DNA of 52,110 nucleotides, from the IMG/VR virus record IMGVR_UViG_3300009528_000003, positions 1 through 52,110 of that record; one strand, 5' to 3'. The stretch comes from a virus. Below, one piece after another: positions 12,826 through 39,587 of this stretch (position 1 is its first letter; each line of letters begins with the position of its first letter). Both the position numbers and the translations under genes were made by a program. The notes below the pieces were generated by a model. The model searched no databases. It was not told the origin of the DNA and saw nothing but the letters and a program-made list of their open reading frames with translations.

Positions 12826-12847
12826 TTTGTAATTTAGGAGACCTACA

Positions 12848-14079: not shown

Positions 14080-14904
14080 ATGCAAGACCATATTAGACCT
14101 GAAGATTGGAAATACACCAGTGTTGATTTTGGTGATGATAAGTCCGTTCTATTTCGGATCAAGTATATTGGTTCGGAAGTATCGGCGATAGTCAGCATTG
14201 ACTCGGCTGGTGACATGACCTTCGAACACGGTGCTTCTGGCTCAGAAGCAGCCGATGATGACACAGCCCTGGATGCTGGTGGGCTTGGAGTTATTGATAT
14301 TTCCGCTGATGTTGGCAACTACCATTCGCTTATGAACCGGATCAACAATTCCGATAATTGGCGGGCATGGTTGGTTGGCGCTTTGCCGGACGATGAGCCA
14401 CATACCACAACCACAGGTCACTTCACGGAATGCACTGGTGCTGATGGCGGTACTGGTGATTGTGATGTTGATGGTGGTTATGCCGTCACGACCGATGATT
14501 CCGACTCGAAGTACATCGTAGCTGGGATGACTTTTCAGGCGGAACCTGGTACAGCACACAACACTGACCATCAGGTGCTGCACGAACTGTACCGAGTTGT
14601 TGCCGTGGGTGCATACACCGGAGCCGGTACACTTAAAGCGTATGCCTGCGATGATGATGACGGAACCAGTGAACAGATCGCCAGTTGGCCTCTTGGTGCT
14701 ACCACTGTCGAGGTGGCATATCCCGCGGAAACCTATACTACAGGTTTGATCCCTATTGCAACTTGCAAAGGCAAGCGGCTGGCAGTGAAAATGGCAGCCG
14801 CCACAACCCTGGGAACCCTTGTCCGGCTGAAGATCGAAGGCCGGAGCTACGCCTTTGGCCCGGCGGTCGAGAAGGACAGACAGTACGTAGCCACGCTCGA
14901 TTGA
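14080..14904 (+). CDS. Abundant head protein, probable decoration or minor capsid protein
   Basis: A 274-aa acidic, Thr/Gly/Asp-rich protein right after the coat gene, with the strongest ribosome site in the genome and followed directly by a terminator. These are marks of a high-copy structural protein. It is beta-rich, with a Cys-containing loop (ECTGADGGTGDCD) and a compact C-terminal strand region ending in VKMAAATTLGTLVRLKIEGR. Head decoration is inferred from position and expression; no family is recognised. Confidence 0.6.
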   Translation: MQDHIRPEDWKYTSVDFGDDKSVLFRIKYIGSEVSAIVSIDSAGDMTFEHGASGSEAADDDTALDAGGLGVIDISADVGNYHSLMNRINNSDNWRAWLVGALPDDEPHTTTTGHFTECTGADGGTGDCDVDGGYAVTTDDSDSKYIVAGMTFQAEPGTAHNTDHQVLHELYRVVAVGAYTGAGTLKAYACDDDDGTSEQIASWPLGATTVEVAYPAETYTTGLIPIATCKGKRLAVKMAAATTLGTLVRLKIEGRSYAFGPAVEKDRQYVATLD

Positions 14905-15389: not shown

Positions 15390-16070
15390 ATGAGTTCCAA
15401 AGCAACCATAGTCCAGCGGTTGATGGATGAGTTTGGAAAAGATTCCCAAGCCGCCAGACAACAGATAGAGCAAGCTGTAGGTGAGATTACGGTTGATCTC
15501 CTGTCTCAGAACCAAGGTAGGTTTCTTGGACTGGAGAAGACACTCTCAATCACGATCAATAATACCGATACCGAGTATCGCCTGCCCGCCGATTTCAACA
15601 CCGCCAAAAAGACCTTCTATGAAGTTAACTCGGATGGTGACTATATCGCTGAGTGTATGTGTCTCAGTAAATCCGAAGTCCAAAACCGAATGAGTGAGGG
15701 AGCCTACAGTGGCTACCGGCTGGCTTATATCAGGCGTAACATACTTGGTGCATCCGGGCGTGGTGACTATCTCGTTATTGCTGATGCCCCCGATGAGACC
15801 AAGTATTTTGAGTTTGATTACTACCGTGAACCTACTGAGAACGACACTGACGTTATTCGCAACGATCATATCGTGATGACCGGAGCAAGAGGTCTGTTGC
15901 CGCAATTTGTGGACATGGACAGGGCGGCTTACCAGACCGGAATCTACAGCAGGATGCGGGACGGGTTCAGGGAACATCCCGAGAAGCGGAAAACCAAGAG
16001 GATCATGCTTCCGTCCAAACGTATAGGCAATCATAACAGGCGGATGTATGAGAGAAGTCAAAGGAACTGA
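15390..16070 (+). CDS. Head-tail adaptor-like (neck) protein
   Basis: The 226-aa product has the pattern of gp4/gp11-type adaptors that sit under the portal: an N-terminal helical segment (TIVQRLMDEFGKDSQAARQQ), then DTEYRLPADFNTAKKTFYEV and a Tyr-rich beta region (FEFDYYREPTENDTDVIRND). It starts five bases after the previous stop. No signal peptide is present, in contrast to the next gene. Assignment is by pattern and position. Confidence 0.6.
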   Translation: MSSKATIVQRLMDEFGKDSQAARQQIEQAVGEITVDLLSQNQGRFLGLEKTLSITINNTDTEYRLPADFNTAKKTFYEVNSDGDYIAECMCLSKSEVQNRMSEGAYSGYRLAYIRRNILGASGRGDYLVIADAPDETKYFEFDYYREPTENDTDVIRNDHIVMTGARGLLPQFVDMDRAAYQTGIYSRMRDGFREHPEKRKTKRIMLPSKRIGNHNRRMYERSQRN

Positions 16071-16071
16071 T

Positions 16072-16737
16072 ATGGCAATACGAAAAGGGCATCTGACGGC
16101 TTTGCTCCTGATATTCTTGGCCTTGTTGTTTCTGATTCTGGTTTCACCAAGCCAAGGGAAAACCGCTGCCGAGATGATCGCTGACTTTCGTATTCTGACG
16201 GATGAGGACACAACTCGTGGGTCACTGGTAACGGATTCGGAAGTCTTGGTGTATTTGGATAATGCACAGGATAAAATTGTTCGCATTGGTGGATACCTTA
16301 AAAAAAGCACAGATGTCATCTGTAGCAATGATAGCAATAGCTATGGGCTACCACTTGCTTTTCGCAGATTAGACGGCATTGTCGTATTTGCTATGAACGA
16401 AGGCTTTAAGTGGACTAAGGTTTTTAACAATCCGTTCTTTATGGTAGACACAACTGTCTATCAATACTATATCAGTTGGTCTCACCCAGACAGTGCGAAA
16501 ATATATTTCAAGGGTGATTTCTGGGAGGGTGATACAATCAGGGTGTCCTATACTGGTGATGCGGCTGATCTGGATACTCTTACCGACACCTGTGAGGTGC
16601 CCACCGACCTACAGACCTTCATCATCGAGGAAGCCATTGCCAACTACGAACGGGCAAAAAGAAATCACCAAGTCCAGTGGCAGACTCAAACTCAAGTGCG
16701 TAGAGATATGGGAATTCTAAAGCAGGTGGAACCATGA
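16072..16737 (+). CDS. Second neck/adaptor-like protein with N-terminal signal or anchor helix
   Basis: 221 aa from ATG 16072. Residues 1-29 are a basic head plus a long hydrophobic helix (LTALLLIFLALLFLILVSPS) that ends in SQG, like a signal peptide or uncleaved anchor. The mature part resembles the adaptor fold of the preceding gene: EVLVYLDNAQDKIVRIGGYL, then SYGLPLAFRRLDGIVVFAM, strands, and a helical C-terminus. An exported neck protein is very unusual. It overlaps the next gene by ATGA. Confidence 0.65.
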   Translation: MAIRKGHLTALLLIFLALLFLILVSPSQGKTAAEMIADFRILTDEDTTRGSLVTDSEVLVYLDNAQDKIVRIGGYLKKSTDVICSNDSNSYGLPLAFRRLDGIVVFAMNEGFKWTKVFNNPFFMVDTTVYQYYISWSHPDSAKIYFKGDFWEGDTIRVSYTGDAADLDTLTDTCEVPTDLQTFIIEEAIANYERAKRNHQVQWQTQTQVRRDMGILKQVEP

Positions 16738-19268
16738 AGGTACTTGCCGTCATTACGCTCCTTGTGATACTCTTGTCCGTGGTTCTGCCTGCTCAAGAAA
16801 TTCAGGTTAAGAGGGTCATGGACTTTTCCGGCGGGCTGGTAAACTCGATCTCCAATGCCGCTATGCGGGACAATATGGCAGTGGTACTGGAAAACTATGA
16901 CATTGATCCTTTCGGGAACTTCAAACGCCGAGCGGCTTTGACACCTTACGCAATCAACACTGGCATTAAATATGTCTACGCCATAATACCACGAATAAGC
17001 TCAGATGGTAAGCGATTGTGGATACTGGCACGAAGAGATGCTGCCTCCAAAAGTGAACTGATTGGTTGCGACAATGCGGCACTTACCTGTGACAGTACAT
17101 GGGTTACGGGACTATATCAGCCTTCGACTGATTGGATTGTGCCCTACAACTACGATGTGGTTAATTATCAAGATCAACTCTTCGTGGCAAGCACCAATAG
17201 CGAAATGATGGTTTACCGAGATAGTATTTTCTATCCCGCTCGACCCCGTGCGCCCGGTCAGGCAAATGTGACAGTCAGGAACAGCGGAACCGGAAACCTC
17301 AAGGGTACTTTCAGGTACAAATACCTCTACGTTGACACCAGTGTCACATTTGCTGGTGGCGCATCCAACCTGTCCGCACCAACTTGGCCAGTGACTGTTA
17401 ATTATGGTAATGTCCGTATATGGGACATCTGGGATGGTGGTAAGGACTCGATAAGGATATATCGAGAAAAGAACTTTAGTGGCAACTATGAATATCTGGT
17501 TACCCTTGATTCGGGCGACGCTGATTATCTGGACGCAACAAACGCAACGAATCCGGCAGACACATTTACTTATAGATGGGGGCCGCGCTATCACTGTTCA
17601 GCTGGTAATAACGCCAATGATGCTTCTTGTCCGACTACCTGTGCTGGAGAGAGTAAAGTGCCGGCACCCGGAGCCATGAATGTAGCGACTGGGAGCGGTC
17701 ATGGTACGGGTCATGGAGCCCCCGATGCTTTAGCTTCAGGGTACAAGTGTTGGTTCATGGCATATTCGACTGTTTTTATTGATTCGGCTGGTCGGCATAG
17801 TTATATGTCCACTCCTGCGTCCGTAGTGGGTGGTTGCGATAAAGTGGACACTAACACCTCCGGTTTATTTTCAAACATTCCAGTTCCACATGATTCGGGT
17901 ATTGTTAAAAAGCTACTACTGCGGATGCACTGCGATGACCAGTATTACGGACATGAGGATCGTGACTCAGGCTGGGTAAATATCTACTTTATCGTAGATA
18001 CTCTTGATCCTGACGTTACTTCATATACGGATAGCGTAGGCTATTCTGAGCTTAGGGAGCGAGACCCGTACTTAAATGTTTGTGTTGGTCGGCAGGTAGT
18101 CTCTGTAGCGGATTCGTTTTGTGAAGCCGATTCCCTGAATATATGGATTTCCCATGACAGCATCGGTGACCTACCTGAACTTGCCTGTTACGATGACTCG
18201 CTTATCCCCTTCCAACCGATGAGCATAGCCTTGCATGGGCCACGTCTCTACGGGATAGGTGATGCCAGCAATCCCGACCATTTGTGGTATTCGCTGTTTC
18301 ATCGACTGACGACTTGGCCTTACGATCAATATGTAGTTGTTCCGTCTCATGGAAGCGATTGGTTTGTTGACCTTTTAGTTTTAGGCGACCGCCTGATTCT
18401 CTTCCGGCAGAACTCTATCGTGCAACTACAAGGTCACAATTTTTATCAGTATTCTTTTAATGAACTCATCAGTAATGTGGGATTGACTGCTCCCCGTAGT
18501 GTTGCAAGGCTTGGCAATACAGTCTATTTCTATCACTCAACAGGTGTTTATACTCTGTCTGCATTCGGTGGTGTGTGCTCGCAACCTTTGTCGTTCGCCA
18601 TTCAGAAAAGTCTCGATTCGTTCATGGTCAATCAACAGAGGGCGGTTGGTGCCGCAGTAGCTGGCGACTATTGGTTATCGGTTGATTATGCAACCGGATA
18701 TCAAACGACCTACATCTATTCTGAAACACCAACACCGCACTGGAAGGCATATGGGTTTGGCCTTCATGCGGTTGTGCAACATGACCCCGATACAACTTAC
18801 GGTAATTACAATCCAAACAAGTGGTTGATAGCACTGGTTAGAGGCTTTTGTGATGAAGGGGACAATACCGTTCTCTACCAGTGGAGGCTTGATGAGTTGG
18901 CTGGCTTTCAAAACAGGGACACGATTGATATTTGTTGCCTAACGGATTCTGTATATGTACCGATTATCGCTACGTATCAGTCCAAGCGGTTCTTTGAAGG
19001 CAGGGAAAGGGAAAGAGTTTATTGGATCGACATCGTTGGAGAGGGGACTGCCGACACTATTACGTTTACATTTCTGGATGAAGGTGTGGCCTTTGACACT
19101 GTGAAATATCTGCCGGACTTCACTGACGGAATACGTGACCGCATCATAGTTGACCACATTGTCAGTGACTTTGCGGTACGTTGGCAGGATAGCGGTTACG
19201 GGCAGTACACGATCAAGGGCTATGAAATAGGATGGATACCCTGGGATCGGGGGAGGCCGGTGCCATGA
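16734..19268 (+). CDS. Large tail/neck protein with Sec signal peptide
   Basis: An 844-aa protein. Residues 1-20 are a classical signal peptide (KVLAVITLLVILLSVVLPA, cut before QEI). The next part, DFSGGLVNSISNAAM ... VVLENYDIDPFGNFKRRAAL, is the hallmark start of podovirus tail-hub or stabilisation proteins. There it begins the cytoplasmic protein, so the signal peptide looks like an addition. A long beta-rich body follows, with paired cysteines (CSAGNNANDASC, CDDQYYGHEDRD) suited to an oxidising compartment. Confidence 0.7.
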   Translation: MKVLAVITLLVILLSVVLPAQEIQVKRVMDFSGGLVNSISNAAMRDNMAVVLENYDIDPFGNFKRRAALTPYAINTGIKYVYAIIPRISSDGKRLWILARRDAASKSELIGCDNAALTCDSTWVTGLYQPSTDWIVPYNYDVVNYQDQLFVASTNSEMMVYRDSIFYPARPRAPGQANVTVRNSGTGNLKGTFRYKYLYVDTSVTFAGGASNLSAPTWPVTVNYGNVRIWDIWDGGKDSIRIYREKNFSGNYEYLVTLDSGDADYLDATNATNPADTFTYRWGPRYHCSAGNNANDASCPTTCAGESKVPAPGAMNVATGSGHGTGHGAPDALASGYKCWFMAYSTVFIDSAGRHSYMSTPASVVGGCDKVDTNTSGLFSNIPVPHDSGIVKKLLLRMHCDDQYYGHEDRDSGWVNIYFIVDTLDPDVTSYTDSVGYSELRERDPYLNVCVGRQVVSVADSFCEADSLNIWISHDSIGDLPELACYDDSLIPFQPMSIALHGPRLYGIGDASNPDHLWYSLFHRLTTWPYDQYVVVPSHGSDWFVDLLVLGDRLILFRQNSIVQLQGHNFYQYSFNELISNVGLTAPRSVARLGNTVYFYHSTGVYTLSAFGGVCSQPLSFAIQKSLDSFMVNQQRAVGAAVAGDYWLSVDYATGYQTTYIYSETPTPHWKAYGFGLHAVVQHDPDTTYGNYNPNKWLIALVRGFCDEGDNTVLYQWRLDELAGFQNRDTIDICCLTDSVYVPIIATYQSKRFFEGRERERVYWIDIVGEGTADTITFTFLDEGVAFDTVKYLPDFTDGIRDRIIVDHIVSDFAVRWQDSGYGQYTIKGYEIGWIPWDRGRPVP

Positions 19269-19295
19269 GAAAGTTGCTTCTGATTAGAGTAGATT

Positions 19296-19997
19296 ATGTT
19301 CAGTAAATTAGTCCTTTTCATTCTTGTCGCTCTTTTGGCTGGGTCGGTTGTAGCTGACCAGTATCTTGAAGGCCCCTGGGGGAAAAAGAAACTCTCACCA
19401 GCACAATCTTTACTTATAGAAAGTGCGAGACGAAAGGTAAGAGAGGCGACTGAAAAATATGGCGTAGAATCTTCACAAGCACAGAAAGCTGACAAAGAAC
19501 TTCGTGATTTAGTATCATTGATAAGTGGTCAACCCGTTCACGATCAATCTGTTCCCGTAGAACCCAAACCAATCGATATTGAACCATATAAGCAAGCAGG
19601 GCAGGCCCCAGAAATTCCAACAACAATGCAGGAGCAAGAACTGAGGAGCTTGATTCAAGACGAGATTAGAAAACTTCAAGGGGAAATACTAACCACCTAC
19701 AGTCCTGATGGAGAACCCATTCATCAGTCTCAAGATGCTAAGGGTTGGCACCGGCAGTTCGGCGCAGCAACATTGGACAATGGAAGGGCTATCGTCAATT
19801 TGAATTCGTCGCCAGCAGAAGGGAAACAAGATGTCAGCTTCATGGCTGACTCGACATACAGGGGTGTTGCTTGGTCACTGGACACCACGAACACGAACAT
19901 CTACTGGATTATCCCTTTAAGCGGAACACAGATACTGGTTAAGTCAAGTGACAATGCGGATACAGCAACAGTGAGATTTCTCTTGGAGGGAATGTAG
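19296..19997 (+). CDS. Virion-associated protein with signal peptide (233 aa)
   Basis: Residues 1-20 form a signal peptide (FSKLVLFILVALLAGSVVA, cut before DQY). Two helical/coiled segments follow (SLLIESARRKVREATEKYG; QEQELRSLIQDEIRKLQGEI), then a small beta domain ending TATVRFLLEGM. ATG 19296 has a weak ribosome site. A 13-codon frame (19265-19306) starting in ATGA with the upstream stop runs over this start and could couple translation. Located in the tail block; function unknown. Confidence 0.6.
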   Translation: MFSKLVLFILVALLAGSVVADQYLEGPWGKKKLSPAQSLLIESARRKVREATEKYGVESSQAQKADKELRDLVSLISGQPVHDQSVPVEPKPIDIEPYKQAGQAPEIPTTMQEQELRSLIQDEIRKLQGEILTTYSPDGEPIHQSQDAKGWHRQFGAATLDNGRAIVNLNSSPAEGKQDVSFMADSTYRGVAWSLDTTNTNIYWIIPLSGTQILVKSSDNADTATVRFLLEGM

Positions 19998-20912
19998 ATG
20001 CCAGATACAGCATATCAGGATTGGATAGAAGCGAATAAGCCTGCGCCAACATTTGAATTGCCGCCGGGGTTCCTCGGTAAAATGGGTGGCGAACCGCTTT
20101 ATGAAATGGAGCAGCCACTCAATCTATTGCTCTGGCGGGAAGCCCTGCAAGGGATCGTAGATATTGACTGGAGTACAATGCCGAAGTTAATAGGACCAGG
20201 CCCCGGATACAGGGGCATAAAACATGACATTCGTGATATTAACAAGTGGAAGGCAGACATACTTACTGCTAATCCAATGCTCAAACAGTTGATGGACGAG
20301 TATGGTTGGTCATGGGAAGACCTTCGAGCTATGACGCAAGGCATGGGCGATGCCCAGAGTGGTTTTCTGCCTGAGTGGGAAGAATATGAGGAAGTGCTCA
20401 AGGGGACACTGTCGGCCAATCAGCAGGAACTTGCGGCTCAACTTGGGACACGGGGAATGTATGGGGCAGGTCAAGCACATCAGATTGACGCAAGAACAAT
20501 ATCGGCAGTTCGCATGAACTATCTACAGGCTTACCAGCGAGGCCGCTTTGCCCAAGAAGATATACGACAGGCTTCTATAGGCCGCCTGACTGGTGCTACC
20601 CTTGAGGCACAAAGAATACGGCGGGCGCAAGAAGCGGCCAATCTTGATAGACAACTCAGGGCGGTGCTCGGAGAAGGAGGACTGCAACTTGGATATGCGG
20701 GGCTGGAGCTTGGATATGCAGAGATGGCCCAGCAACAGAGGCAGTTCGGGGTCGAGATGGGTTTTCGGTCTTATGAGAATAAGATGCGGTGGGAGATGTG
20801 GAGGTATGAGTTTGAGCAGAGGCAACGGGAGGCCAACCAGAGATTCTGGTCAGACTTGTTTGAGGGCGCTACTAAATTTGGAACTTGGTATTTTACGAAG
20901 GGACTAACGTAA
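19998..20912 (+). CDS. Probable internal virion (ejection) protein, helical
   Basis: 304 aa, no signal peptide, starting at the base after the preceding stop. From about residue 125 it is almost wholly helical and rich in Ala, Gln, Arg and Glu (ARTISAVRMNYLQAYQRGRF, AQRIRRAQEAANLDRQLRA), with GxYGAGQA-type turns. This resembles the helical ejection proteins of podoviruses. It is first of three such genes (to 26690). Family assignment is by composition and order. Confidence 0.55.
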   Translation: MPDTAYQDWIEANKPAPTFELPPGFLGKMGGEPLYEMEQPLNLLLWREALQGIVDIDWSTMPKLIGPGPGYRGIKHDIRDINKWKADILTANPMLKQLMDEYGWSWEDLRAMTQGMGDAQSGFLPEWEEYEEVLKGTLSANQQELAAQLGTRGMYGAGQAHQIDARTISAVRMNYLQAYQRGRFAQEDIRQASIGRLTGATLEAQRIRRAQEAANLDRQLRAVLGEGGLQLGYAGLELGYAEMAQQQRQFGVEMGFRSYENKMRWEMWRYEFEQRQREANQRFWSDLFEGATKFGTWYFTKGLT

Positions 20913-20916
20913 TAGT

Positions 20917-22050
20917 ATGCAATCACCATTTATACGAGGCGCAGTTTCTGGAATAAGTTCGGGTCTGGATGAGATGTGGCCTTACCTCATGCAGCGCAAG
21001 CAAGAGCGTGAGAAGGAGGAAGAGCGCCAGAGACGGCTGGATCAGGCCGTAGCTGCTGCACGGCGTTTTTATCCAGATGCTGACCCAGAAGAGATAAGAG
21101 CGGCCATACAACTTCACTTGGCTGGTATTCCGCAAGGTCTTAGAATAATCGATAGCCGAGTTGGGGCGGAAGAACGACAACAAGCCTTTGATGAGTTAAT
21201 TGAAGATGTACCGGACAAACTGAAGGGATATTTCCGCAATAGGTGGGAAATAACAGGCGGTGCTTCAGGTGGGGGCAAAGCTGATGTAGCATTTCAATAT
21301 CAGTTGCAGACAGAGGATGAAAAGCAGGAGTTAGTGAGGGACGCAGAGACACTGGAGTATCTGCTTGGCAAGAATGGTCTGGTTTGGAACCCAAAGCCAT
21401 CTTCTAAAATAACTAAAGAGGATGCACAACATCTCTCCCGCTACAGACAACGCTTTGGAGTAGATGCCTATAACAAGGTGCGAGATCAGATGGTCGGCGA
21501 GCAGGTTGATAAAGAGCAGGTGCTATTATCCAAGGTTGGCAATCTGGAGTGGGATCAGCTAACTACAAAGGATAAACTGGAGATCAAAAAGGAACTTGGC
21601 CTCTCCTATGCCGAGCAAAAGAAGTTTTTCCATGCTGCAAAAGAGGATAAGCTCTCATTCAGGGACATCATCTCTGTGAAGCAGAGCATTATGCAACAGT
21701 ATCAGTTCGATCAATCGTATGTGAATTGGAGAAGGGCTACGGGTGAAGCCAGAGAACACTCACGTTTTCAGTTTTTTAATGACAATTTCAATCCGGGTAC
21801 TGGTGAGCCTAAAATCGAGTTTGTTCGCTCTGAAATCAACGCAGCCCTGAACAAACCGGAAATGCCAGACAGAATCTACCAGATTTACGACTCGGTTCGC
21901 ATACACCGCGCTGGCAAAAGTCTTGAGCAGATCAGAAAGGATATTGTCAGAGCACGGCGGACGGGCACGGGGGCTTTCGGCTTGTCTGCCAAATACTTTG
22001 TCGGTCTCACAAACGATGAAATCGACATGATCTTGGAGCGTTTTGAGTAA
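20917..22050 (+). CDS. Probable internal virion protein (377 aa)
   Basis: The N-terminus has a charged helix (LMQRKQEREKEEERQRRLDQ) followed by ARRFYPDADPEEIRAAIQLH. The rest is helical and highly charged. No signal peptide or enzyme motif is seen. It lies between another helical protein and the 1546-aa protein, overlapping the latter by one base, so it is likely packaged or ejected with DNA. Confidence 0.55.
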   Translation: MQSPFIRGAVSGISSGLDEMWPYLMQRKQEREKEEERQRRLDQAVAAARRFYPDADPEEIRAAIQLHLAGIPQGLRIIDSRVGAEERQQAFDELIEDVPDKLKGYFRNRWEITGGASGGGKADVAFQYQLQTEDEKQELVRDAETLEYLLGKNGLVWNPKPSSKITKEDAQHLSRYRQRFGVDAYNKVRDQMVGEQVDKEQVLLSKVGNLEWDQLTTKDKLEIKKELGLSYAEQKKFFHAAKEDKLSFRDIISVKQSIMQQYQFDQSYVNWRRATGEAREHSRFQFFNDNFNPGTGEPKIEFVRSEINAALNKPEMPDRIYQIYDSVRIHRAGKSLEQIRKDIVRARRTGTGAFGLSAKYFVGLTNDEIDMILERFE

Positions 22051-25000
22051 TGCCACCGAGAGATAAAACAGGTCTGTTTATCGATCCGGCTGATTATGAG
22101 GTGCAGTCGGGGATGGCTCTACGGGATACGATGTTACCGAGTGTTCCCGGAGCCGAGCAGCCGGGCTGGTTCCCAAGTCGCAACATTATTAGACCTGAAG
22201 AGGGCGGGGCAACTTCGAGTTTAGCTCAGGGAGGTGGCGAAGACCTGTTTTCGGGGACACCCGGATTCCGGGAGCTTGTGGAAAAGGCGCAACAGAACCC
22301 CGATCAGCTTACGAATGAAGAGCGCAAGATCATTGAGAAGGCCATTGAGCTACAGATTATCCCCGACATATTTGCTCAGGCTCAAGAGGAGGCAAAGGAT
22401 AAGAAGATAGGTGCCCTTGACCAGTTCATTCAGGATCAGATGGAGGTCTTTGCGGCCAACGCACATAAGCCATATTTAGAGCAGTACGCTGCAAGTCTCG
22501 GTCACTTTATGGAAGGCATTGATGCTATGGCGTCCCGCTCGGCTGAGACGAAACTTGGAGCGAGTGAGCTGGTACAGGAGCACTACACTAAGCTCGGCAT
22601 AATGCCAATTCCCGAAGATGCGGAAAGTTGGGGAATCAACAAAGAGGGCGAAATCAAGCGTGGTAAAATGTCCGATGTCCAGAGAATGTCATTGAACTTT
22701 CTTTACGGTGCCGTCAGGCTGGCTCCAGAGCTAACGGCTGCTTTCATTGACAATCCCTACGAGCTTATGAAGGGCTTTGCGACTTTTGTCCCTGAGACGG
22801 TGGCATTGGTCGGGCGAGCGGCAAATATCAAGTTGACCGTGACCGGCCCTGAAATTGGTGTCTACACATCGGATCAAGTAGAGGATGCCATAGAGGAAAT
22901 AAAACAGAACCCACTTGGTGTTCTGCTGGCTGGGATGATGACAGTCGGTGTTGGTGCCCGAACCGCCAAGCATCTCGGTCGAGGCAAGCCAGATAAATAC
23001 ATCACGCAGAGGACTGAAGTTGTTGAGAAACAGCAGGCACGAATAGATCAGGCCGAGTCTGAGGCGGCAAAGGTCAAGACCGAGCTTGAAGCGATCAAGA
23101 AAGAAAAAGCGGTTCCAGCAGTGGAGAAGCCTGCACCTAAACCAACGGAGGTTGCCAAAGCCGCCAAAGAGCCGTGGGAGATGACGAGGAAGGCTTTTGC
23201 CGATAGTGACATAGCCAAAATAGAAGGATTTAGCCCACCAAGAGAAGGATGGGGCGGCACAATACAGGGTAGTGTCAGAATTAAATCAGGTCAAGAGGGT
23301 ATTGGTACTACACTTGAGGCTGCACGTTTAGATGCTGTTAATAAAGAACATTTAAGACAAATCAAAAAAGCTCTTTATAAAGATAAGTCTGTTTCCGCTG
23401 AAGTCCTGAAAGATTACCCCGATCTCGTCAAGAAAGCTGTGCCAAAACGAGTAGCGAAGCCTACTAAGGTTGCCAAGCCCACAGTTGCCAAAGAGCCGTG
23501 GGAGATGACGAGGGAGGAGTATTGGATTCGTAGAGAGTCTACAGATACTGCTGCAGCACGTGACAGAATAGGATTATCTGACCGAAAGGGTTTTGTGCGA
23601 GAATTGGAAAGTTTTCGACAAGCACGATACGGGGAGCATCGTTCATACATTGAACGTGCTCTTCGTGAAGGTAAATCTGTATCGGCTGAGGTACTAAAGC
23701 TATACCCTGACCTTGCTAAGAAGGTTCCAGCGAAGGTAGAAGCTATTGCGAAACTCGAAAAGGCTCCCCCTATCCCGAAAGAACTGGAACCAGCAAAGGG
23801 CAAAGCAATCGCCCCAGCCGATGTTGCCAACTATCTCAGTAAATCCTTGAAGATTCCTATCCGTGTGGGCAAATACCGCCAGAAGGCTCGTGGAATCTAC
23901 AAACAACAGCCAGAGGTTGTCCGTCTCAAAGACCCCAGTGACATTGCCGCTATCAGCCACGAAGTTGCCCACCATATTGATAAGGTCTTTGATCTTAGCA
24001 AGATCAGAAAAGGCGACCGGGAACTAACCAAACTCGACTACGATCCACTTAAAGGCCGGAGCAAGGAAGGCTTTGCCGAGTATGTGCGGATGTGGCTGAC
24101 CGAATCTGATAATGTGGCTCAACTGGCACCGAAGTTCACCAAGAAGTTTAATGAGTTTCTCGACAAGAATCCTGAACTCAAGGGTACACTTGAAAACACT
24201 CGTGGCCTGATACGCCGCTGGCGTGAGCAGGGAGCCGAAGAACGGGTCTACGCACAGATTGATATGCAGGGCAGGGGGACACCAGGGCCGATTATGGAGA
24301 AGGCGGGTCGTGGTCTTCGGCGAATTGGGACTCTCTTTGTGGATGATCTCATTCCCCTTGAATATGCTGAAAGACAAATGCGAGGAGTTAAAACTCTTGA
24401 TCCCCGGAAAATTGATCCAGCTACAAGTCCAACGATGATTGCCCGTGTAGAGGTTCGTAAGGCACCCGCCAAAACTCACGACATGATTCTGGGGGGCACA
24501 TTTGACTGGGCTGGCAAGTACACAGGGATAAGCCTAAGGGATGCTCTGGCTCCAGTATCTAAACAGATCAAGGAATTCACAACCTATGCCTATGCCCGCC
24601 GGGGATTAGAATTACATGGGCGTGGTATTAACCCTGGCATTGACTTGGCTGATGCTCAGTATGTGGTGTCTAAGCTCAAGTCTTCAAAGTTTGATCGTGC
24701 CTTTGATGAGGTTGTCCGTTTCCAAGATCGAGTGCTTCAATATGCGGTTGATGCTGGAGTCTTGTCTAAAGAAGCGGCAGCCACTGTCCGTGATTTGAAC
24801 CAAGCATACATCCCGCTCAAGCGTGTCTTTGAGGAGGGTTCGGGATTCGGTTATGGTGGCGGAAAGAAAATTGCCGATCTGCCAAAACCACTCAAACTTA
24901 TACGTGGTAGCGGTCGCCAGATTCTCAACCCTTGGCACTCTATTATTCAGAGCACTTCTGAAATTATAGCAATCGCCGACAAGGTTCGCATTGGAAACGC

Positions 25001-26690
25001 ACTTGTAGAACTGTCCAAGAAAACTGAAGGTGCTGGTAAGTGGGTTGAGAAGGTTGAGCCACCAAAAAGAGCTATCAGCCAAGCACTAAAGGATTTAGAA
25101 AAACAGCTTAAAGATGCCGGAGTTGATCTTTCTCAGGCCGATATGGACGCGGTTGTTACCTTGTACGCAAATTCGCCCAAGTATTTAGGCAAAGAGAACA
25201 TTGTCGCTTTTTGGCGTGAGGGCAAGCGTGAGTTCTACCAGCTTGAGCCTGATCTTTACCGAGCAATTATGAACAGCGATCGGATGGCGATGCCCTGGAT
25301 TGTTAATCAGATAATGGGTGCCCCCGCAAGAGCCGTTCGACTTGGAGCTACTGGTTTACAGGCTGGTTTCTCCTGGATCACTAATCCGATTCGTGATGCT
25401 CAAGCCTTTGCTCTACAGACTGAATTCTCGACTGGATTGCCTCACGAGGTTGCTAAGGGTCTTTATCGTCGAGTCAAACCGGGTGATCCTTATACGAGAA
25501 TTTGGAAACGTTCTGGTGGTGATTTCAGCATACACATAGGCTTTGACCGGCGATACTTGAAAAGCGCACAACAACGTGTGCTGGCAAGCGACATACTTAG
25601 GAAGACGTATAATGTGGCAAGGCATCCCATTGAGATTGCAAGGGAAGCCCTCAGTTTTTCAGAAGCAGCACCGAGAATTGCCGAACTTGAGGCTGCCTAT
25701 AAGAAAGGTGAGAAGCTCTATGGTAAAGAGTCAGTCTCGGCACGGCTGATGGGTGCTGGTGCTGCCGCTGAAGTGACTATCAACTTTGGTCGGATGGGTG
25801 CCTACGGTAAATACATCAACCAGATCATCCCCTTCTGGAATGCTGGTATTCAGGGTTGGTCGAAAATGTATCGTTTTGGTAAAGAGCATCCCGTTAAGGC
25901 TGGAATTAGGGCTACAGCTTTTATATCTGCCCCGACATTCGGTCTTTGGTGGATGCACAAGGACGAGCAGTGGTATCAAGACCTACCAGCTTGGAGGAAG
26001 TACGGCTTCTGGAATTTCCATATTGGGCAAAATAAAGATGGTTCCAACCGTATTCTGAGTCTTCCGAGACCCTTCGATTGGGGTATCGTTTTTGGCTCTG
26101 TACCAGAAATGATGCTGAACTACTGGTATGAAAAGGACAAGAAGGCAATGACAGACGCACTTACCGCCATTGGCGAATGGGCAGTTCCAGATTATATCCC
26201 TGCATCAATGAGGCCGATAATTGAATGGTCGGCCAATTACGATTTCTTCCGTGACAGAGCAACTGATCCCTACTACGAAGTTCGCTACAAAGACCCAGAA
26301 TACAGATACAGCGAATACACACCGGAGACGGCCAAGTGGCTTGGCAAGCAACTGGGTCTGTCTCCTCGGAAGATCAATCACTTGGTCAGTTCTGCAACGG
26401 GAGGGTTGGGAGAGGACATTATCCGAGGCAGTGAAACCTTCAAGCAGTTTTTTGAGGAAGGCATGATGGAAATCGAACATCCGGCTGACATTCCGATAGC
26501 TGGACGGTTGTTCCACAGGGAACCACCACCAGACAAAAAGATGGAATGGTTGTTCTTTCAGGCAAAGGACGAACGCCAGAAGATCATAACCATGATGAAG
26601 GAAGGCGATGTTGACAAGGCCATCAAAAGACTCAACGAATGGAACAGAACACATCCAGCGGCTCAGATTCAGATGACACCAAAGAGATAA
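22050..26690 (+). CDS. Giant internal virion protein with zincin motif (large polyvalent protein)
   Basis: 1546 aa. Residues 320-560 form a Lys/Pro/Ala-rich linker carrying two copies of a roughly 80-aa module that begins KEPWEMTR (about 374 and 482) and ends SVSAEVLK.YPDL. A metallopeptidase-like HEVAHHIDK follows at about 637, with EGFAEYVRMWLTE near 674 supplying a possible third ligand. The C-terminal third (GRMGAYGKYINQIIPFWNAG) resembles the LPD38 type of large polyvalent protein. Such proteins are injected with DNA. A role in peptidoglycan or host-protein cleavage is inference. Confidence 0.65.
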   Translation: MPPRDKTGLFIDPADYEVQSGMALRDTMLPSVPGAEQPGWFPSRNIIRPEEGGATSSLAQGGGEDLFSGTPGFRELVEKAQQNPDQLTNEERKIIEKAIELQIIPDIFAQAQEEAKDKKIGALDQFIQDQMEVFAANAHKPYLEQYAASLGHFMEGIDAMASRSAETKLGASELVQEHYTKLGIMPIPEDAESWGINKEGEIKRGKMSDVQRMSLNFLYGAVRLAPELTAAFIDNPYELMKGFATFVPETVALVGRAANIKLTVTGPEIGVYTSDQVEDAIEEIKQNPLGVLLAGMMTVGVGARTAKHLGRGKPDKYITQRTEVVEKQQARIDQAESEAAKVKTELEAIKKEKAVPAVEKPAPKPTEVAKAAKEPWEMTRKAFADSDIAKIEGFSPPREGWGGTIQGSVRIKSGQEGIGTTLEAARLDAVNKEHLRQIKKALYKDKSVSAEVLKDYPDLVKKAVPKRVAKPTKVAKPTVAKEPWEMTREEYWIRRESTDTAAARDRIGLSDRKGFVRELESFRQARYGEHRSYIERALREGKSVSAEVLKLYPDLAKKVPAKVEAIAKLEKAPPIPKELEPAKGKAIAPADVANYLSKSLKIPIRVGKYRQKARGIYKQQPEVVRLKDPSDIAAISHEVAHHIDKVFDLSKIRKGDRELTKLDYDPLKGRSKEGFAEYVRMWLTESDNVAQLAPKFTKKFNEFLDKNPELKGTLENTRGLIRRWREQGAEERVYAQIDMQGRGTPGPIMEKAGRGLRRIGTLFVDDLIPLEYAERQMRGVKTLDPRKIDPATSPTMIARVEVRKAPAKTHDMILGGTFDWAGKYTGISLRDALAPVSKQIKEFTTYAYARRGLELHGRGINPGIDLADAQYVVSKLKSSKFDRAFDEVVRFQDRVLQYAVDAGVLSKEAAATVRDLNQAYIPLKRVFEEGSGFGYGGGKKIADLPKPLKLIRGSGRQILNPWHSIIQSTSEIIAIADKVRIGNALVELSKKTEGAGKWVEKVEPPKRAISQALKDLEKQLKDAGVDLSQADMDAVVTLYANSPKYLGKENIVAFWREGKREFYQLEPDLYRAIMNSDRMAMPWIVNQIMGAPARAVRLGATGLQAGFSWITNPIRDAQAFALQTEFSTGLPHEVAKGLYRRVKPGDPYTRIWKRSGGDFSIHIGFDRRYLKSAQQRVLASDILRKTYNVARHPIEIAREALSFSEAAPRIAELEAAYKKGEKLYGKESVSARLMGAGAAAEVTINFGRMGAYGKYINQIIPFWNAGIQGWSKMYRFGKEHPVKAGIRATAFISAPTFGLWWMHKDEQWYQDLPAWRKYGFWNFHIGQNKDGSNRILSLPRPFDWGIVFGSVPEMMLNYWYEKDKKAMTDALTAIGEWAVPDYIPASMRPIIEWSANYDFFRDRATDPYYEVRYKDPEYRYSEYTPETAKWLGKQLGLSPRKINHLVSSATGGLGEDIIRGSETFKQFFEEGMMEIEHPADIPIAGRLFHREPPPDKKMEWLFFQAKDERQKIITMMKEGDVDKAIKRLNEWNRTHPAAQIQMTPKR

Positions 26691-26701
26691 AGGAGATACT
26701 G

Positions 26702-26995
26702 ATGCTGAACAAGAACGGAATATGGAAAGTGGCTACAAGAACATTGGCTGGATGTCTTATCCTCTTTATCGCTTGGTACGGTAGTCAGGTTTGGGGTAAT
26801 CAACAAGAAATAGAGAAGGTGAATACTCAACAGGAAATAAGCATTAAGGTGCTTCAGGCTTACATTGTCTCGACTGACAAAGCGATATTGGATATACGGG
26901 ATTCTATGAGAGAAGAGGCGGTTAGGGATAAGAGGCGAGACAGTGTAATCCAGGACTTAGCCTTTAAGGTCAATATGATGTTCGATAGTAGGTGA
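26702..26995 (+). CDS. Membrane protein with coiled-coil tail (97 aa), possible holin or spanin-type
   Basis: ATG 26702 has an AAGGAGA site; an earlier ATG at 26639 would overlap the giant gene by 52 bases and lacks one. One membrane helix at about residues 12-31 (LAGCLILFIAWYGSQVW) is followed by a charged helical tail. Topology resembles an inner-membrane spanin or a one-span holin, but its place before the tail fibre rather than in the lysis cluster argues for a virion or membrane-anchor role. Confidence 0.55.
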   Translation: MLNKNGIWKVATRTLAGCLILFIAWYGSQVWGNQQEIEKVNTQQEISIKVLQAYIVSTDKAILDIRDSMREEAVRDKRRDSVIQDLAFKVNMMFDSR

Positions 26996-27000
26996 GTTAG

Positions 27001-30000
27001 ATGAAACACATTCTTACAATCTTCGTTCTTTTATCCCTGTGCGGCAGCGCATTCGCACAACCAGCACCGGCGGTTTTCTTAAAGTGGGACGATGACGGAA
27101 ATGCTATCTTCAACAAAAGGGGAGATTCGCTATTCCTTTATCTCATTAACGGTTCCGACACAAGTGTCCTGTGGATTAGCTCAAGTGGGATATATTGGAA
27201 TCCTTCCACGCTCTTAGATTCTCTGTTCCTTGATAGTATGCGTACAGCGGCTGGCCGATTTGATGACCTCGATAGCGGTGCTATTATGGACATCATTGGC
27301 GACACAGGGATTGCGACTGGAGATATTATCAATGCTACCCTTTTGTTTGAGGACTGGGCGCAGAATGCTGCCAGTGCTAATCAGGTTGCAGTGTGGACTG
27401 GGAGTGTTTGGGAAGCACAAGATCAAGCTACTGGCGGGACTGGCGGCTGGACAGATCAAGACCCCCACATCATCCTTGAAGCCATTGATGATTCGGTTGG
27501 CATTGGGACGGCCTCGCCAGATGCTAAACTGGAAGTAGTCGGAGAAATAAAGACAGATACTCTAATTGTAACCGAGGACATCACTTTACCTGACAACTCA
27601 ATCAGTGATGAGGAATTGGATGAGGGGGCAGCCTTTTTATGGACTGGCGGTCATCAATGGAATGCCGCTGCTTATTTTGCAGATAACTTAATTGTTTACG
27701 ATGGTGTTGGAGATTCGCCATTTTTTAGTTGTAGAGATGGGGACAGTAAGCATTTTTTGATTTCCAAGTATGATGCAGGATACAGCAGACTTTACAACAA
27801 TGAGGCTGAAATCCGTTTCCACTTCTCCGATGATGGAGACGACTATATTTATTTCGATACATCTACTGCCAACGTCCCAATGATCTCGACTGGGGGTGAT
27901 TGTGATATGGTCATAAATGCCAGCAGCGGTGAGATTTCTCTTGGTGACGAGAACCTGACAACTACTGGCACACTGGATGCTGGAGCTACTTCAGTTACGG
28001 GAAATATCACGGTGACAGGGACTGTGGATACGGTAGATTTAGCCGCTTTGGGTGCGACTGTTCCCAAAATCACTGATGATACTACAGACTTCAAGACCGC
28101 TTATGATTCTTCTCAAAATCTGACAGCCAACTACATGGATACAGATGGCGATACGGTTACTGGGACTTATGATTTCTCAGACGGAGACATTGTAGACGTT
28201 GAAAACCTTGACGCAGACACAATCGTTACTATCTATGCGACAAGGGGAACAAAGGCAGTTGCCGACAGTCAATATACAACTAAGAAATATGTCGATGATA
28301 ATATAGCTGCGGCTGGGGGCGGAGATGTGACCGATGTTGTAGGTGGGGATGGCTTGGTCGATGATGGTAACACCGGCTCTATCACACTTGACGTGAAGGC
28401 TGGTTATGGCATTGTGATTGTTGGTGATTCGGTAGAAGCTGACACTGCGACATTGAAGGCCAACATGATTGTAGATTCTGCCGTTGGAGCTGAACGAGCG
28501 ACCTATGCCGATTCTGCTGGTTCCAGTGCCGATGAGAAGGTGCAGGATAAGGTTGGTGCTATGTTTACGGATAGTGCCCATTCTCAGATAACGGCTGTTT
28601 ACGATGATGCTGGAGCTACTGTTGAATTGGCTTTGGACAATCCAGTAGACTCTGCCGATGGCTCTGAACGGGCGACAAAAGACGGGGATGGCAGTACAAT
28701 CAGCACAACTTATATGAAACGTAGTGGTGCTTTAGCGGTGACTGGCAACCAGAATTGGGGCGATCAGAATCTTACCAATGTCGAGATAGGCGACTTTGAT
28801 ACTTTGGCTGTGGAGAGTCTGGGTGTTAGTTCTCGTTTTGAGATTGGCGGCGATAAGTTTACAGACTTAACTGGTAGCGGATTAGAAATTGTTGCTGGTG
28901 CTCTTACGCACACAGCGCATACTGGTGATGTAACAGGGACGACAGCACTGACGATTGCCGCTAATGCGGTCGAGTCGACCATGATCGGGGCAGATCAGGT
29001 AAACGATCTTGACATCAATTTTGGTACGGGTACGGATCAGGTGTCAACGACCGATATACCGGAAGGCACAAACAAGTACGAAACTTTCGATTCCAGTGCT
29101 GCTAAAATTCGTGCCAAGCCCATTAGTAAGGCTGCACCAACGGACAACTATATCCTAAAGTTCGATGCGGTTAAAGATTCCTTTATGTTGGAGGTAGATG
29201 CTGGTGCTGCTGGCGGAACAACAGATTCCACCTATATCAATGATGGTGTTCAATATGGCCCGTTTACCAACGATATGTATAAGATACTGGAGGGTGCGGG
29301 AATCAATATCGTTAGGGAAGATTCTACAAGTTATGATGTTTTCAAGTTTCAAGCTACTCTCGGCACAAGTGTTGATCTAACATCAGAAGTAACTGGCACT
29401 CTGCCTGTTAATAAAGGTGGCAGTGGCGCATCCAACCTAACTGACCACGCTCTCATTGTCGGTAGTGGAACTGACCCCGTTTCTAATATCGGAGTCATGT
29501 CCAGTGGACAAATCCCGATTGGTGTAACCGGAGCTGACCCTGTAGCTGCTGCTCCTTCAGCCGGTGAGGCGATAGATATTAGTCTCGGTGCCGGTTCGAT
29601 TACTATAAGTGCCGAGGATGCAACGTCAGCTAACAAGGGTGTTGTGACTCTTGCGGCGATAAGAGCTGCTGGGGATACGGCTGCACATGACACCGCTGAT
29701 GTTTTGCGTAGTGAGGTGCAAGTGGAGATAGAGGATAGCCTTGACGAATACTCTCTAACATCGGCGATTGCTTCATTGTACCCTGATACCGCAGAAGTGG
29801 TGGACACAATTCAGGGGGTTCTTACGGAAGGTGGCTATCTTACTGGCAATGAATCTATCACGCTTTCCGGCGATGTTTCCGGTAGTGGAGCGACAGCTAT
29901 TACGACTACAATAGGTGCCAGTAAGGTTGACTCCAATATGCTTAACTCCACTGAGGTAGACGAATATATTCAGGACAAAGCAGGTGCAATGGACGGTGGT

Positions 30001-32019
30001 ACGGAAACCAGAATCAGCGTTACGTACAATGATGGTACGGGTGAAATAGACTACGTTGTTGACGACATGAATGATGATGTGCCGGAGGCGGGGGACTATA
30101 CTGCCCTGACAGGTGGCCACGGAATAACTCACGACCCGACTGGGACGGTCAAGGTTGACACTGCTGTTGCTGTTGCAGATGCCGAGACCAAGCCAGTTAC
30201 AGGCAATGCCGTTTGGGACTTCTGTGAGACGACCAAAAACTATGCCCTAAACAGTGAACTACATACCCGCTCTCACACGATGACCTCTACGAGTGACCAT
30301 ACAGCTGGTAACTATAAACTATTTCACTCGGACGGTTCCGGTGAAGTGCAGGAGTTGGCTCATGGTGCAAGTGCTAAAGTACTAACAAGCGGTGGCGCTT
30401 CTTCTGCACCAACATGGGAAACGCCTACTGCTGGTTTCAACTGGCAAGACAGTGCCGGTGAACCGCCGTTCTGGGTGGATTCAGCGAAGTATGCAACAAC
30501 AACTGGAAGTATAAGTGATGCTTTTGTTGCTGGTAAACTGACCGTCACTGGGCCGATAGATAGGTACAACATCAAACTTGAACTCGACACTACCAACATT
30601 TACTGTGCTCACGCTGACACCTTTCTAAGGTTGCCGATTGATACAAGCTCTATAGGTGCTCCAGAGGACACATTCCAGATGATGCACCCGTCGATTGTCT
30701 ATATACCCGAAGGAAAATGGGGTTACAAATACTGGTTGGCATGTACACCACCAAATGCATCTCCCATAAAGGAAGACATACACATTCTTGTTAGCAATGA
30801 CGAAGTAACTTGGACGGAGTTTGTATCTGGTTCAGATACTTTATATAATCCGGTTTTTAAGGCGGCTGATTTCGATAGTGCTATTTATACATCCGATCCA
30901 GATATGGTCTGGGATGAAAACGGCGACCTACATCTTGTATTTCGTGTTAGTCGCATAAATGTTACAGATAGTCCTACGGTTCATTATTTGTATTGTGCTT
31001 CCACAAATGATGGGATTGACTGGACTGATACCATGATGATAATTGACGGTTTCTATGACTACGGAACAGGAATTAGTCCAAAGTGGGGTAGTCTTGATCT
31101 TCTTTCGCCGGGACTCATTATGCGTGGCGCAGGTGATTATTTCATGTATACATCAGAGGATACGGGTTCAGGGTCTCCGACTAAATGGACACGAGTTGCT
31201 TGGGAGGCACCAAGAATTGATACTCTGTGGCGTAATGTCTCCGGTTTTGACAGTACAATCTTATTTGGAACAATCGGTCCGTTTATGTATGATACAATTC
31301 GTATATCTATAGTTCATCAAACCTTCCCCGATGGTAATGTGGTATTCCATGCGGATGAAATTGTTTATGGTACTGATTTGATTGTCAATTTAGTTGGTAC
31401 TTACGATGGAGTTATCACGTACCCCGCTATCTATATGGGTATTAGTACAGACGGGGAATACTTCACCTCGGTTTCGACTCCACTTCTTGATACGATAAAT
31501 AACTTAACCGCATGGGATCATAATATACTTTACAGAGCATCGGGCTATTTCGTTGTTCGTAACGGTAAGGTAATTTTGCGGATGTATTACTGTGGTGAAG
31601 TAGATGGTGACTGGTACACTGGTCTTACGAATGTTTACTTTGGGGATGTTCTAAATACGAAAGAACTCTTAATCTGGAATCCCGATATTATTACGGATAC
31701 AGTCCCGATATTTGAAGCCGACTCAGCAGATTATCCGGGTGGCATTGAGATATATTCAGTCGCAGTACAGACATCGGAAGACGGCACATATGCACTAAAA
31801 TTCTTCAGCTACACCGCCGCCGACCCGCCGGTATTACATGATTACATAGATACCTTGAATGTCGGGGCATCCGATCAAAGGGCATCATCTATCCTCTTTG
31901 AAGATGACGATTCTCCGCTCATTGATCGTGGACAGTCTATGTATATTCTGACTCCTTCAACCGACATTGACTGGATTAAGGTAAAGTACAAGTTCTTTGT
32001 GAGGGACTGGTTAGAATGA
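27001..32019 (+). CDS. Tail fibre/spike protein with Sec signal peptide
   Basis: 1672 aa. Residues 1-19 are a signal peptide (LTIFVLLSLCGSAFA, cut before QPAP). The body holds typical fibre modules: SPDAKLEVVGEIKTDTLIV, two QDK(V/A)GAM repeats with following YDD/YND strands (about 513 and 990), and LPVNKGGSGASNLTDHALIV. From about residue 1200 a new domain with repeating WDENGDLHLVFRVSR and STNDGIDWTD motifs looks like a glycosidase-type beta-propeller for surface-glycan binding or cleavage. It overlaps the next gene by ATGA. Confidence 0.8.
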   Translation: MKHILTIFVLLSLCGSAFAQPAPAVFLKWDDDGNAIFNKRGDSLFLYLINGSDTSVLWISSSGIYWNPSTLLDSLFLDSMRTAAGRFDDLDSGAIMDIIGDTGIATGDIINATLLFEDWAQNAASANQVAVWTGSVWEAQDQATGGTGGWTDQDPHIILEAIDDSVGIGTASPDAKLEVVGEIKTDTLIVTEDITLPDNSISDEELDEGAAFLWTGGHQWNAAAYFADNLIVYDGVGDSPFFSCRDGDSKHFLISKYDAGYSRLYNNEAEIRFHFSDDGDDYIYFDTSTANVPMISTGGDCDMVINASSGEISLGDENLTTTGTLDAGATSVTGNITVTGTVDTVDLAALGATVPKITDDTTDFKTAYDSSQNLTANYMDTDGDTVTGTYDFSDGDIVDVENLDADTIVTIYATRGTKAVADSQYTTKKYVDDNIAAAGGGDVTDVVGGDGLVDDGNTGSITLDVKAGYGIVIVGDSVEADTATLKANMIVDSAVGAERATYADSAGSSADEKVQDKVGAMFTDSAHSQITAVYDDAGATVELALDNPVDSADGSERATKDGDGSTISTTYMKRSGALAVTGNQNWGDQNLTNVEIGDFDTLAVESLGVSSRFEIGGDKFTDLTGSGLEIVAGALTHTAHTGDVTGTTALTIAANAVESTMIGADQVNDLDINFGTGTDQVSTTDIPEGTNKYETFDSSAAKIRAKPISKAAPTDNYILKFDAVKDSFMLEVDAGAAGGTTDSTYINDGVQYGPFTNDMYKILEGAGINIVREDSTSYDVFKFQATLGTSVDLTSEVTGTLPVNKGGSGASNLTDHALIVGSGTDPVSNIGVMSSGQIPIGVTGADPVAAAPSAGEAIDISLGAGSITISAEDATSANKGVVTLAAIRAAGDTAAHDTADVLRSEVQVEIEDSLDEYSLTSAIASLYPDTAEVVDTIQGVLTEGGYLTGNESITLSGDVSGSGATAITTTIGASKVDSNMLNSTEVDEYIQDKAGAMDGGTETRISVTYNDGTGEIDYVVDDMNDDVPEAGDYTALTGGHGITHDPTGTVKVDTAVAVADAETKPVTGNAVWDFCETTKNYALNSELHTRSHTMTSTSDHTAGNYKLFHSDGSGEVQELAHGASAKVLTSGGASSAPTWETPTAGFNWQDSAGEPPFWVDSAKYATTTGSISDAFVAGKLTVTGPIDRYNIKLELDTTNIYCAHADTFLRLPIDTSSIGAPEDTFQMMHPSIVYIPEGKWGYKYWLACTPPNASPIKEDIHILVSNDEVTWTEFVSGSDTLYNPVFKAADFDSAIYTSDPDMVWDENGDLHLVFRVSRINVTDSPTVHYLYCASTNDGIDWTDTMMIIDGFYDYGTGISPKWGSLDLLSPGLIMRGAGDYFMYTSEDTGSGSPTKWTRVAWEAPRIDTLWRNVSGFDSTILFGTIGPFMYDTIRISIVHQTFPDGNVVFHADEIVYGTDLIVNLVGTYDGVITYPAIYMGISTDGEYFTSVSTPLLDTINNLTAWDHNILYRASGYFVVRNGKVILRMYYCGEVDGDWYTGLTNVYFGDVLNTKELLIWNPDIITDTVPIFEADSADYPGGIEIYSVAVQTSEDGTYALKFFSYTAADPPVLHDYIDTLNVGASDQRASSILFEDDDSPLIDRGQSMYILTPSTDIDWIKVKYKFFVRDWLE

Positions 32020-32558
32020 AAACGACTATTGTAGCTTTGATCTTGATGTTCTACACCCCGTCTCTTGTCTGGGCAGACGGGTTTGGAGCTGATAATGAAG
32101 GTGCTTCAAGTTTTAGTATTGAGGATGAAATTTGGGCTAATCGATCTTCTCCTGAATTTTCGGGCAGACTTGATAGCATCAAGGCTTGGTTGACGGTGAC
32201 GACAGAAGCTCACTTGGTTAAATTAGCGGTTTACAAATGGTCTGATACAAGTTTTGTGGATTCGACTGAGATTATTGATGTACCTACTGGTGAGGGCTGG
32301 GTCTACTTTCAGTTTGTAAACAATGCAAGCATTACCGAAGGTACGGAATATGCCTTAGCTGTTGTAGCAGAAGCAACCGCTGGTTATTGTAAGATTGATG
32401 TTGATCTAAACATCGGTTCTCATGCTGTTCAATCTGATTTTACCTATGGTGTGTGGCCTACTCCCAAATGGACTACAGTGAGTGGTATTGGAAACATGGA
32501 GTTCTCGATCTACTGTTTTTACACAGCGGTGGGAGGACAGGTGATTTTTATACAGTGA
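32016..32558 (+). CDS. Secreted fibre-associated beta-sandwich protein
   Basis: 180 aa with a signal peptide (residues 1-20, ...YTPSLVWA, cut before DGF). The mature domain has a jelly-roll pattern of a carbohydrate-binding or fibre-tip module (FSGRLDSIKAWLTV, AHLVKLAVYKWSD, GWVYFQFVNNASITEGTEYA). The overlap with the fibre gene implies a receptor-binding partner. Carbohydrate binding is inferred from fold pattern only. Confidence 0.6.
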   Translation: MKTTIVALILMFYTPSLVWADGFGADNEGASSFSIEDEIWANRSSPEFSGRLDSIKAWLTVTTEAHLVKLAVYKWSDTSFVDSTEIIDVPTGEGWVYFQFVNNASITEGTEYALAVVAEATAGYCKIDVDLNIGSHAVQSDFTYGVWPTPKWTTVSGIGNMEFSIYCFYTAVGGQVIFIQ

Positions 32559-39553: not shown

Positions 39554-39587
39554 TGTTTCATAAGAAGTTAGCAGCATTTTTTATCTC

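Follow-up and report, generated by a model that had tools for sequence, protein, structure and literature searches.

In virus record IMGVR_UViG_3300009528_000003, whose 52,110 bases are here called the window, an uncultured, short-tailed phage of SU10-like type is encoded in which the outward-facing virion proteins begin with predicted Sec-type signal peptides, while the head proteins, the first adaptor and the DNA-ejection proteins do not. The same split recurs in three diverged phages, which strongly suggests, at the level of sequence, that all virion parts beyond the first adaptor ring (adaptor 1) are exported via Sec.

Signal peptides on the outer virion proteins

The initial annotation assigned signal peptides to five proteins, and all five N-termini proved to be in frame and of the Sec type (gene positions are given in Table 1). 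They belong to adaptor 2 (start at 16072; MAIRKGHLTALLLIFLALLFLILVSPSQG), the tail nozzle (16734; MKVLAVITLLVILLSVVLPA/QE, with the slash marking the predicted cut), the post-nozzle protein (19296; MFSKLVLFILVALLAGSVVA/DQ), the tail fiber (27001; MKHILTIFVLLSLCGSAFA/QP), and the fiber partner (32016; MKTTIVALILMFYTPSLVWA/DG). Ribosome-binding-type sequences lie upstream of several of the signal-peptide ATG codons. A sixth protein (32672) had been described as having a signal anchor; its hydrophobic N-terminus is present, but the core is long and is ambiguous between an anchor and a signal peptide. The core of adaptor 2 is also long, and we therefore amend the earlier description: both proteins are possibly held by uncleaved anchors. 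The statement that the inner proteins lack signals held for the terminase large subunit (TerL), the portal, the scaffold, the major capsid protein (MCP), adaptor 1, and three ejection proteins; two further head proteins lack them as well.

Signal peptides were called by a rule-based test that looks for a positive n-region, an uncharged hydrophobic core, and agreement with the −3/−1 rule. This test recovered 9 of 10 textbook signal peptides from Escherichia coli and phage M13, two of them with a misplaced cut. By these rules the window N-termini have the positive n-region, hydrophobic core and small −3/−1 residues of Sec and signal peptidase I substrates, with adaptor 2 and 32672 ambiguous. Among window genes for at least 150 amino acids between 7400 and 36000, 6/16 pass. 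The background is far lower: at score 4, only 4 of 477 genes of at least 150 amino acids (0.8%) pass in 79 other podovirus contigs, as do 0.36% of shuffled N-termini. Of 10 loci used as controls or for comparison, eight have no passing protein, L168 has 1/9, and L003 has 2/26, and no signal peptides were found on the tail proteins of crAss001 or on the structural proteins of Cellulophaga phage phi38:1. When the window is pooled with the three phages described below (G001, L018, and G103), 23/25 outer proteins and 0/38 inner proteins pass (Fisher test, 3e-15). These figures have to be discounted to some degree, because the fibers were classed partly by position and composition, so that 23/25 is not a fully independent count, and because the window, G001, and L018 are partly related and thus not fully independent of one another. 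For this reason we rely on the pattern and not on the Fisher value.

Recurrence of the split in G001 and L018

Record G001 (43 kb; loci L011, L015, and L016) and a 44-kb contig, L018, were reached by searching with the large ejection protein, and both have the gene order of the window. Their proteins are only 16 to 30% identical to those of the window in alignments, indicating that the signals have been kept despite sequence divergence. Adaptor 1 has no signal in either phage. Signals are carried by adaptors 2 and 3, the nozzle, and five fibers in G001, and by adaptor 2, the nozzle, and four fibers in L018. The three ejection proteins have none (in L018 the last of them is split between two reading frames). 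The nozzles are homologous (L011 and L018, E = 2e-7; window and L011, E = 0.016), and so are the head and ejection proteins.

The second adaptor of L018 is syntenic with adaptor 2 of the window, matches Pfam SU10_adaptor with confidence (E = 4.5e-10), and has a clean signal, MKRWVFLAVLLLSGSAYA/GF. Window adaptor 2 itself matches PHROG 399 weakly (E = 0.023), with residue 31 at profile position 3 where the match starts. Profile comparison did not show paralogy of adaptors 1 and 2; members of each match SU10_adaptor separately. The nozzle of G001 (L011:3435-7262) has a signal peptide or anchor at its N-terminus, and behind it lies a Pro/Lys/Glu-rich linker of ~110 residues that resembles a periplasm-spanning linker.

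In all three phages the endolysin has no signal peptide (it is M15-type by motif, or SLT with E = 8e-22) and is followed by a holin-type small membrane protein and then by a signal-peptide protein that resembles an outer membrane barrel. In G001 the last residue of this barrel-like protein is aromatic, a feature of outer membrane proteins, which indicates that the G001 host is probably diderm. L018 (contig JAHFKK010000004.1) looks like a complete phage and is filed in a Gottesmanbacteria metagenome-assembled genome (MAG). Its tetranucleotide profile correlates at 0.66 to 0.70 with the other contigs of this MAG, compared with 0.95 to 0.99 within the contig, and we therefore do not trust the Gottesmanbacteria host label. 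The contig is probably either misbinned or an infecting phage.

A signal peptide added to a second nozzle family

Record G103, which has a near twin in G104, encodes a nozzle of a different family, "tail tubular protein B" (PHROG 376; E = 2e-147). The profile match starts at residue 19, which is profile position 5, and when this nozzle was compared with 139 matching phage records, the alignments began at residue 18 or later among the 25 matches listed. Of 80 sampled nozzles that contain the GGELSP motif, 79 lack a signal, and in 78 of these 79 the GG motif is preceded by 10 to 13 residues (the outlier, with 51, comes from automatic start choice). The G103 nozzle has 27 residues before the motif and would have 11 once cleaved as predicted. 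By this comparison its signal peptide is an addition in front of a complete protein, and the predicted cleavage would restore the normal N-terminal length. G103 has no signal on its capsid, portal, adaptor (PHROG 394), or ejection proteins, and two fiber-like proteins of this phage, of 968 and 1,394 amino acids, both have one.

Homologues without signals

The initial annotation had made homologues a check on the export reading, and by the rule-based test the signals recur in G001 and L018 and are absent from the nozzles of L168 and L170. The L168 nozzle is 34% identical to the window nozzle over the core (E = 2e-8), and neither it nor the two L168 adaptors, one of which matches SU10_adaptor (E = 2.6e-10), carries a signal. 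The export signal is thus not inherent to the family. In L009, L019, and L003, signals are found on fiber-like or post-nozzle proteins only, and the adaptors and nozzle have none; from this pattern, fiber export seems to be commoner than nozzle export.

It had also been argued that Cys-rich loops in the window nozzle suit an oxidizing space. This argument failed, since signal-less nozzles are similar in Cys content (L168, 1.25%; L003, 1.20%; window nozzle, 1.8%). Cysteine content was rejected as an export marker because it does not separate exported from nonexported nozzles.

A proposed two-compartment assembly pathway

The initial proposal has two parts, the export of tails or fibers and their joining to heads at, in, or outside the inner membrane. 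For the outer virion proteins, export has good support because the split recurs in three diverged phages, because signal-less homologues exist, and because the G103 signal precedes an otherwise normal N-terminus. Cleavage of the signal peptides is probable. The place and time of head-tail joining are a guess.

The boundary of the split falls between adaptor 1 and adaptor 2 in the window, G001, and L018 and between adaptor and nozzle in G103, which suggests that the cytoplasmic product is a head bearing its first adaptor ring and that the parts distal to it are exported. In the pathway we propose, the cytoplasm would be the site at which the head, the portal, the ring of adaptor 1, and the packaged ejection proteins are synthesized and put together and at which the heads are filled with DNA. 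The distal proteins (adaptor 2 where present, nozzle, post-nozzle protein, and fibers) would cross the inner membrane by means of their Sec signals, and signal peptidase I would cleave most of them. The tails, whole or in parts, would remain in the periplasm, some perhaps tethered through uncleaved anchors; the G001 nozzle, with its long core and linker, is a candidate for such tethering in the meantime. Tails and DNA-filled heads would meet on opening of the inner membrane by the holin, or following release. Given the cytosolic endolysins and holin-like genes, joining at or after holin opening is the simplest version. We consider this two-compartment route, with cytoplasmic heads, Sec-exported outer parts, and joining at the holin opening or after release, the likeliest account, with some confidence. 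We are evenly divided on the broader proposal that Sec-exported tails evolved two or more times, in nozzle families that are unrelated, that they are completed in the periplasm or outside, and that the adaptor 1 ring is the surface on which they join filled heads once the inner membrane opens.

Apart from the partial dependence of the pooled counts, several points weigh against this account. The signal-peptide calls come from a rule-based test, and the identities of adaptor 2 and the nozzle rest on homology and synteny. AlphaFold models were too low in confidence for a fold search (mean predicted local distance difference test [pLDDT] score of 29.5 for the nozzle and 39.7 for adaptor 2). The N-termini of window adaptor 2, 32672, and the G001 nozzle are possibly uncleaved anchors. 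Codon 29 of the window nozzle is an internal ATG preceded by a weak GAGGG. Finally, the sequence holds nothing on where heads and tails join.

The anchors form the core of the foremost alternative, in which most of the signals stay uncleaved and the tails are inner-membrane-bound, periplasm-facing machines at which filled heads dock. The long hydrophobic cores of those three proteins, and the periplasm-spanning-like linker behind that of the G001 nozzle, fit such an arrangement, but 19296, 27001, 32016, and most L018 and G001 fibers have short cores with good −3/−1 sites, and cleavage in G103 would restore a normal N-terminal length. We regard it as unlikely. It is quite improbable that the hydrophobic N-termini are instead retained on the virion and help it to breach the next host's membrane, with no export during assembly. 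Hydrophobic segments at a tail tip could in principle enter membranes, but here the adaptor and the distal fibers carry them too, with a lysine start and signal-peptidase-type sites, and the ejection proteins, which in known podoviruses form the channel across the envelope (PMC11784390, PMC9509320), do not. The internal ATG of the window nozzle would allow two forms, an exported one with another role (decoy or superinfection exclusion) and a cytoplasmic, internally started one that builds the virion. However, the L018, G001, and G103 nozzles have no internal starts with ribosome-binding sites, and a decoy role is not obvious for an exported adaptor or nozzle, which makes this still less probable than membrane breaching. 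Chance hydrophobic N-termini or misassigned start codons, which a rule-based prediction might let through, are scarcely credible when 23/25 outer proteins are set against backgrounds of 0.8% and 0.36% and the signals recur at the same genes of distant phages; the initial annotation had argued against chance from the split by expected virion topology.

To our knowledge, the assembly of tailed phages is described as cytoplasmic, and in the literature we found no precedent for podovirus adaptors or nozzles that bear signal peptides. Conserved, topologically consistent export signals in several distant phages imply an alternative route of assembly, which would bear on the closure of heads, the timing of tail joining and of lysis, and the making of disulfide-bonded or bulky fibers. 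A signal peptide on the nozzle is also a simple genomic marker for finding cultivable examples.

Gene content and phage type of the window

The genes of the window that bear on virion structure, lysis, and lysogeny are collected in Table 1.

Table 1. Predicted structural, lysis, and lysogeny genes of the window
Feature	Coordinates	Strand	Basis
Terminase large subunit (TerL), no signal peptide	7913..9754	+	PHROG 2, E 3.1e-20; N-terminus
Portal, no signal peptide	9744..11768	+	PHROG 332, E 1.7e-9; Pfam SU10_portal, E 2.7e-7
Scaffold, no signal peptide	12010..12825	+	Position and composition
Major capsid protein (MCP), SU10-like, no signal peptide	12848..14065	+	Pfam SU10_MCP, E 3.2e-16
Head protein, no signal peptide	14080..14904	+	G001 homologue: blastp E 5e-12 to L011:207-953
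Adaptor 1, no signal peptide, last of cytoplasmic set	15390..16070	+	Pfam SU10_adaptor, E 4.1e-6
Adaptor 2, signal peptide or signal anchor	16072..16737	+	Weak PHROG 399; synteny with L018 protein
Tail nozzle, signal peptide, predicted cut after residue 20	16734..19268	+	PHROG 3287, E 1.4e-6; PHROG 8094, E 7.8e-5
Post-nozzle virion protein, 233 amino acids, signal peptide, cut SVVA/DQ	19296..19997	+	N-terminus
Ejection protein 1, no signal peptide, no Cys	19998..20912	+	Sequence
Ejection protein 2, no signal peptide, no Cys	20917..22050	+	Sequence
Large ejection protein, 1,546 amino acids, no signal peptide, no Cys	22050..26690	+	PHROG 9854, E 1.4e-70; LPD38, E 1.5e-30
Coiled-coil membrane protein with a single transmembrane (TM) segment, possible lysis protein	26639..26995	+	Weak family matches only
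Tail fiber, 1,672 amino acids, signal peptide, cut SAFA/QP	27001..32019	+	Fiber-type repeats by reading; no family match
Fiber partner, 180 amino acids, signal peptide, cut LVWA/DG	32016..32558	+	N-terminus
Possible fiber-associated protein, signal anchor or signal peptide	32672..33757	+	N-terminus
M15-type endolysin, no signal peptide	33765..34145	+	Motif reading; no Pfam match
Small two-TM holin candidate	34822..35013	+	Sequence
Signal-peptide protein, outer-membrane-like, 3' of endolysin and holin	35331..35870	+	G001 and L018 have same order
Integrase-like gene	37509-38573	minus	By reading
Repressor-like gene	39164-39577	minus	By reading

The phage is temperate. Its capsid protein scores 60.1 bits against Pfam SU10_MCP (cutoff, 24.1) and adaptor 1 scores 27.8 bits against SU10_adaptor (cutoff, 27), while the portal, at 29.8 bits against SU10_portal, is just under the cutoff of 30. 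Homologues of the window nozzle are found in L011, L018, L168, and L170, and for an SU10-type nozzle fold there are weak PHROG matches and a model of the low confidence given above. Searches of the PDB by sequence with the nozzle, adaptor, and fiber C-terminus returned nothing useful. In protein sequence the window is not closely related to Kuravirus, and its direct relatives are very distant: tblastn with the capsid and adaptor 1 found zero matches among 50,697 phage records, and pattern scans of viral_contigs with single proteins (nozzle, TerL, and capsid) found no close relatives. An alignment of five TerL proteins was too divergent for use as a search query, and a trial of 99 Cloacimonadota genomes as hosts, which had no positive control, was empty.

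The ejection proteins are nearly Cys-free in all podoviruses examined, whether signal bearing or not, with 5 Cys in ~19,300 residues (counted over window positions 19998-26690 and in L015, L018, L036/L037, L043, L047, L170, L002, and L003) and 0/2,227 in the window; head and most nozzle proteins have about 0.5 to 1.25% Cys. The low content perhaps reflects a need to cross the oxidizing periplasm. Residues ~371 to 560 of the large ejection protein form a repeat domain (PWEMTREEY...GKPVPxEVLxDYPDL) that is common to otherwise unrelated phages (L009 to L013, L018, and L019).

Other signal-bearing proteins were seen in several places. In the window, one is encoded at 38648-38998 (minus strand) between the integrase-like and repressor-like genes; it has a weak match to the beta-barrel family PF13505 (E = 0.006, below the cutoff) and a possible role in lysogenic conversion or superinfection exclusion. 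Two phages have one between the portal and scaffold genes (L168, 2100-2651; L016, 9003-9959, minus strand). L041 (record G108), apparently another phage type, has lipoprotein-type signals in its structural module (VAIG/CSS and SIVG/CLN; 10193-10576 and 11062-12942). The window also encodes two similar proteins, at 39912-40505 and 45635-46135, each of which we read by eye as an HNH-plus-AP2-type homing endonuclease.

Comparison with known systems

Among the closest known systems is Kuravirus SU10, whose Pfam models match the capsid, portal (just under the cutoff), and adaptor of the window and which shares the order of head, adaptor, nozzle, ejection proteins, and fibers. The window differs in having a second adaptor, predicted to be exported as are the nozzle and fibers, and an integrase, and the nozzle similarity is weak. 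The SU10 paper mentions no signal peptide (PMC9509320). The G103 nozzle is a full-length member of the family of T7 gp12 and the HTVC010P "tail tubular protein B" (PHROG 376), but where other members have 10 to 13 residues before the GG motif and no signal, it has an additional 16-residue signal peptide.

Virion proteins with Sec signals are also a feature of the Inoviridae, in which the coat proteins pIII and pVIII are Sec-exported with cleavable signals and assembly takes place outside the cytoplasm. Those phages are headless and have no packaging motor and no lysis. The proteins are unrelated, and the window, in contrast, encodes a terminase, portal, and capsid. Tail formation outside the host cytoplasm is known from the Acidianus two-tailed virus, which grows its tails after release (PMC12662068, PMC3466262). 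That virus is archaeal, spindle-shaped, and unrelated, and its tails grow out of the particle, whereas those of the window phage would be exported separately from the head.

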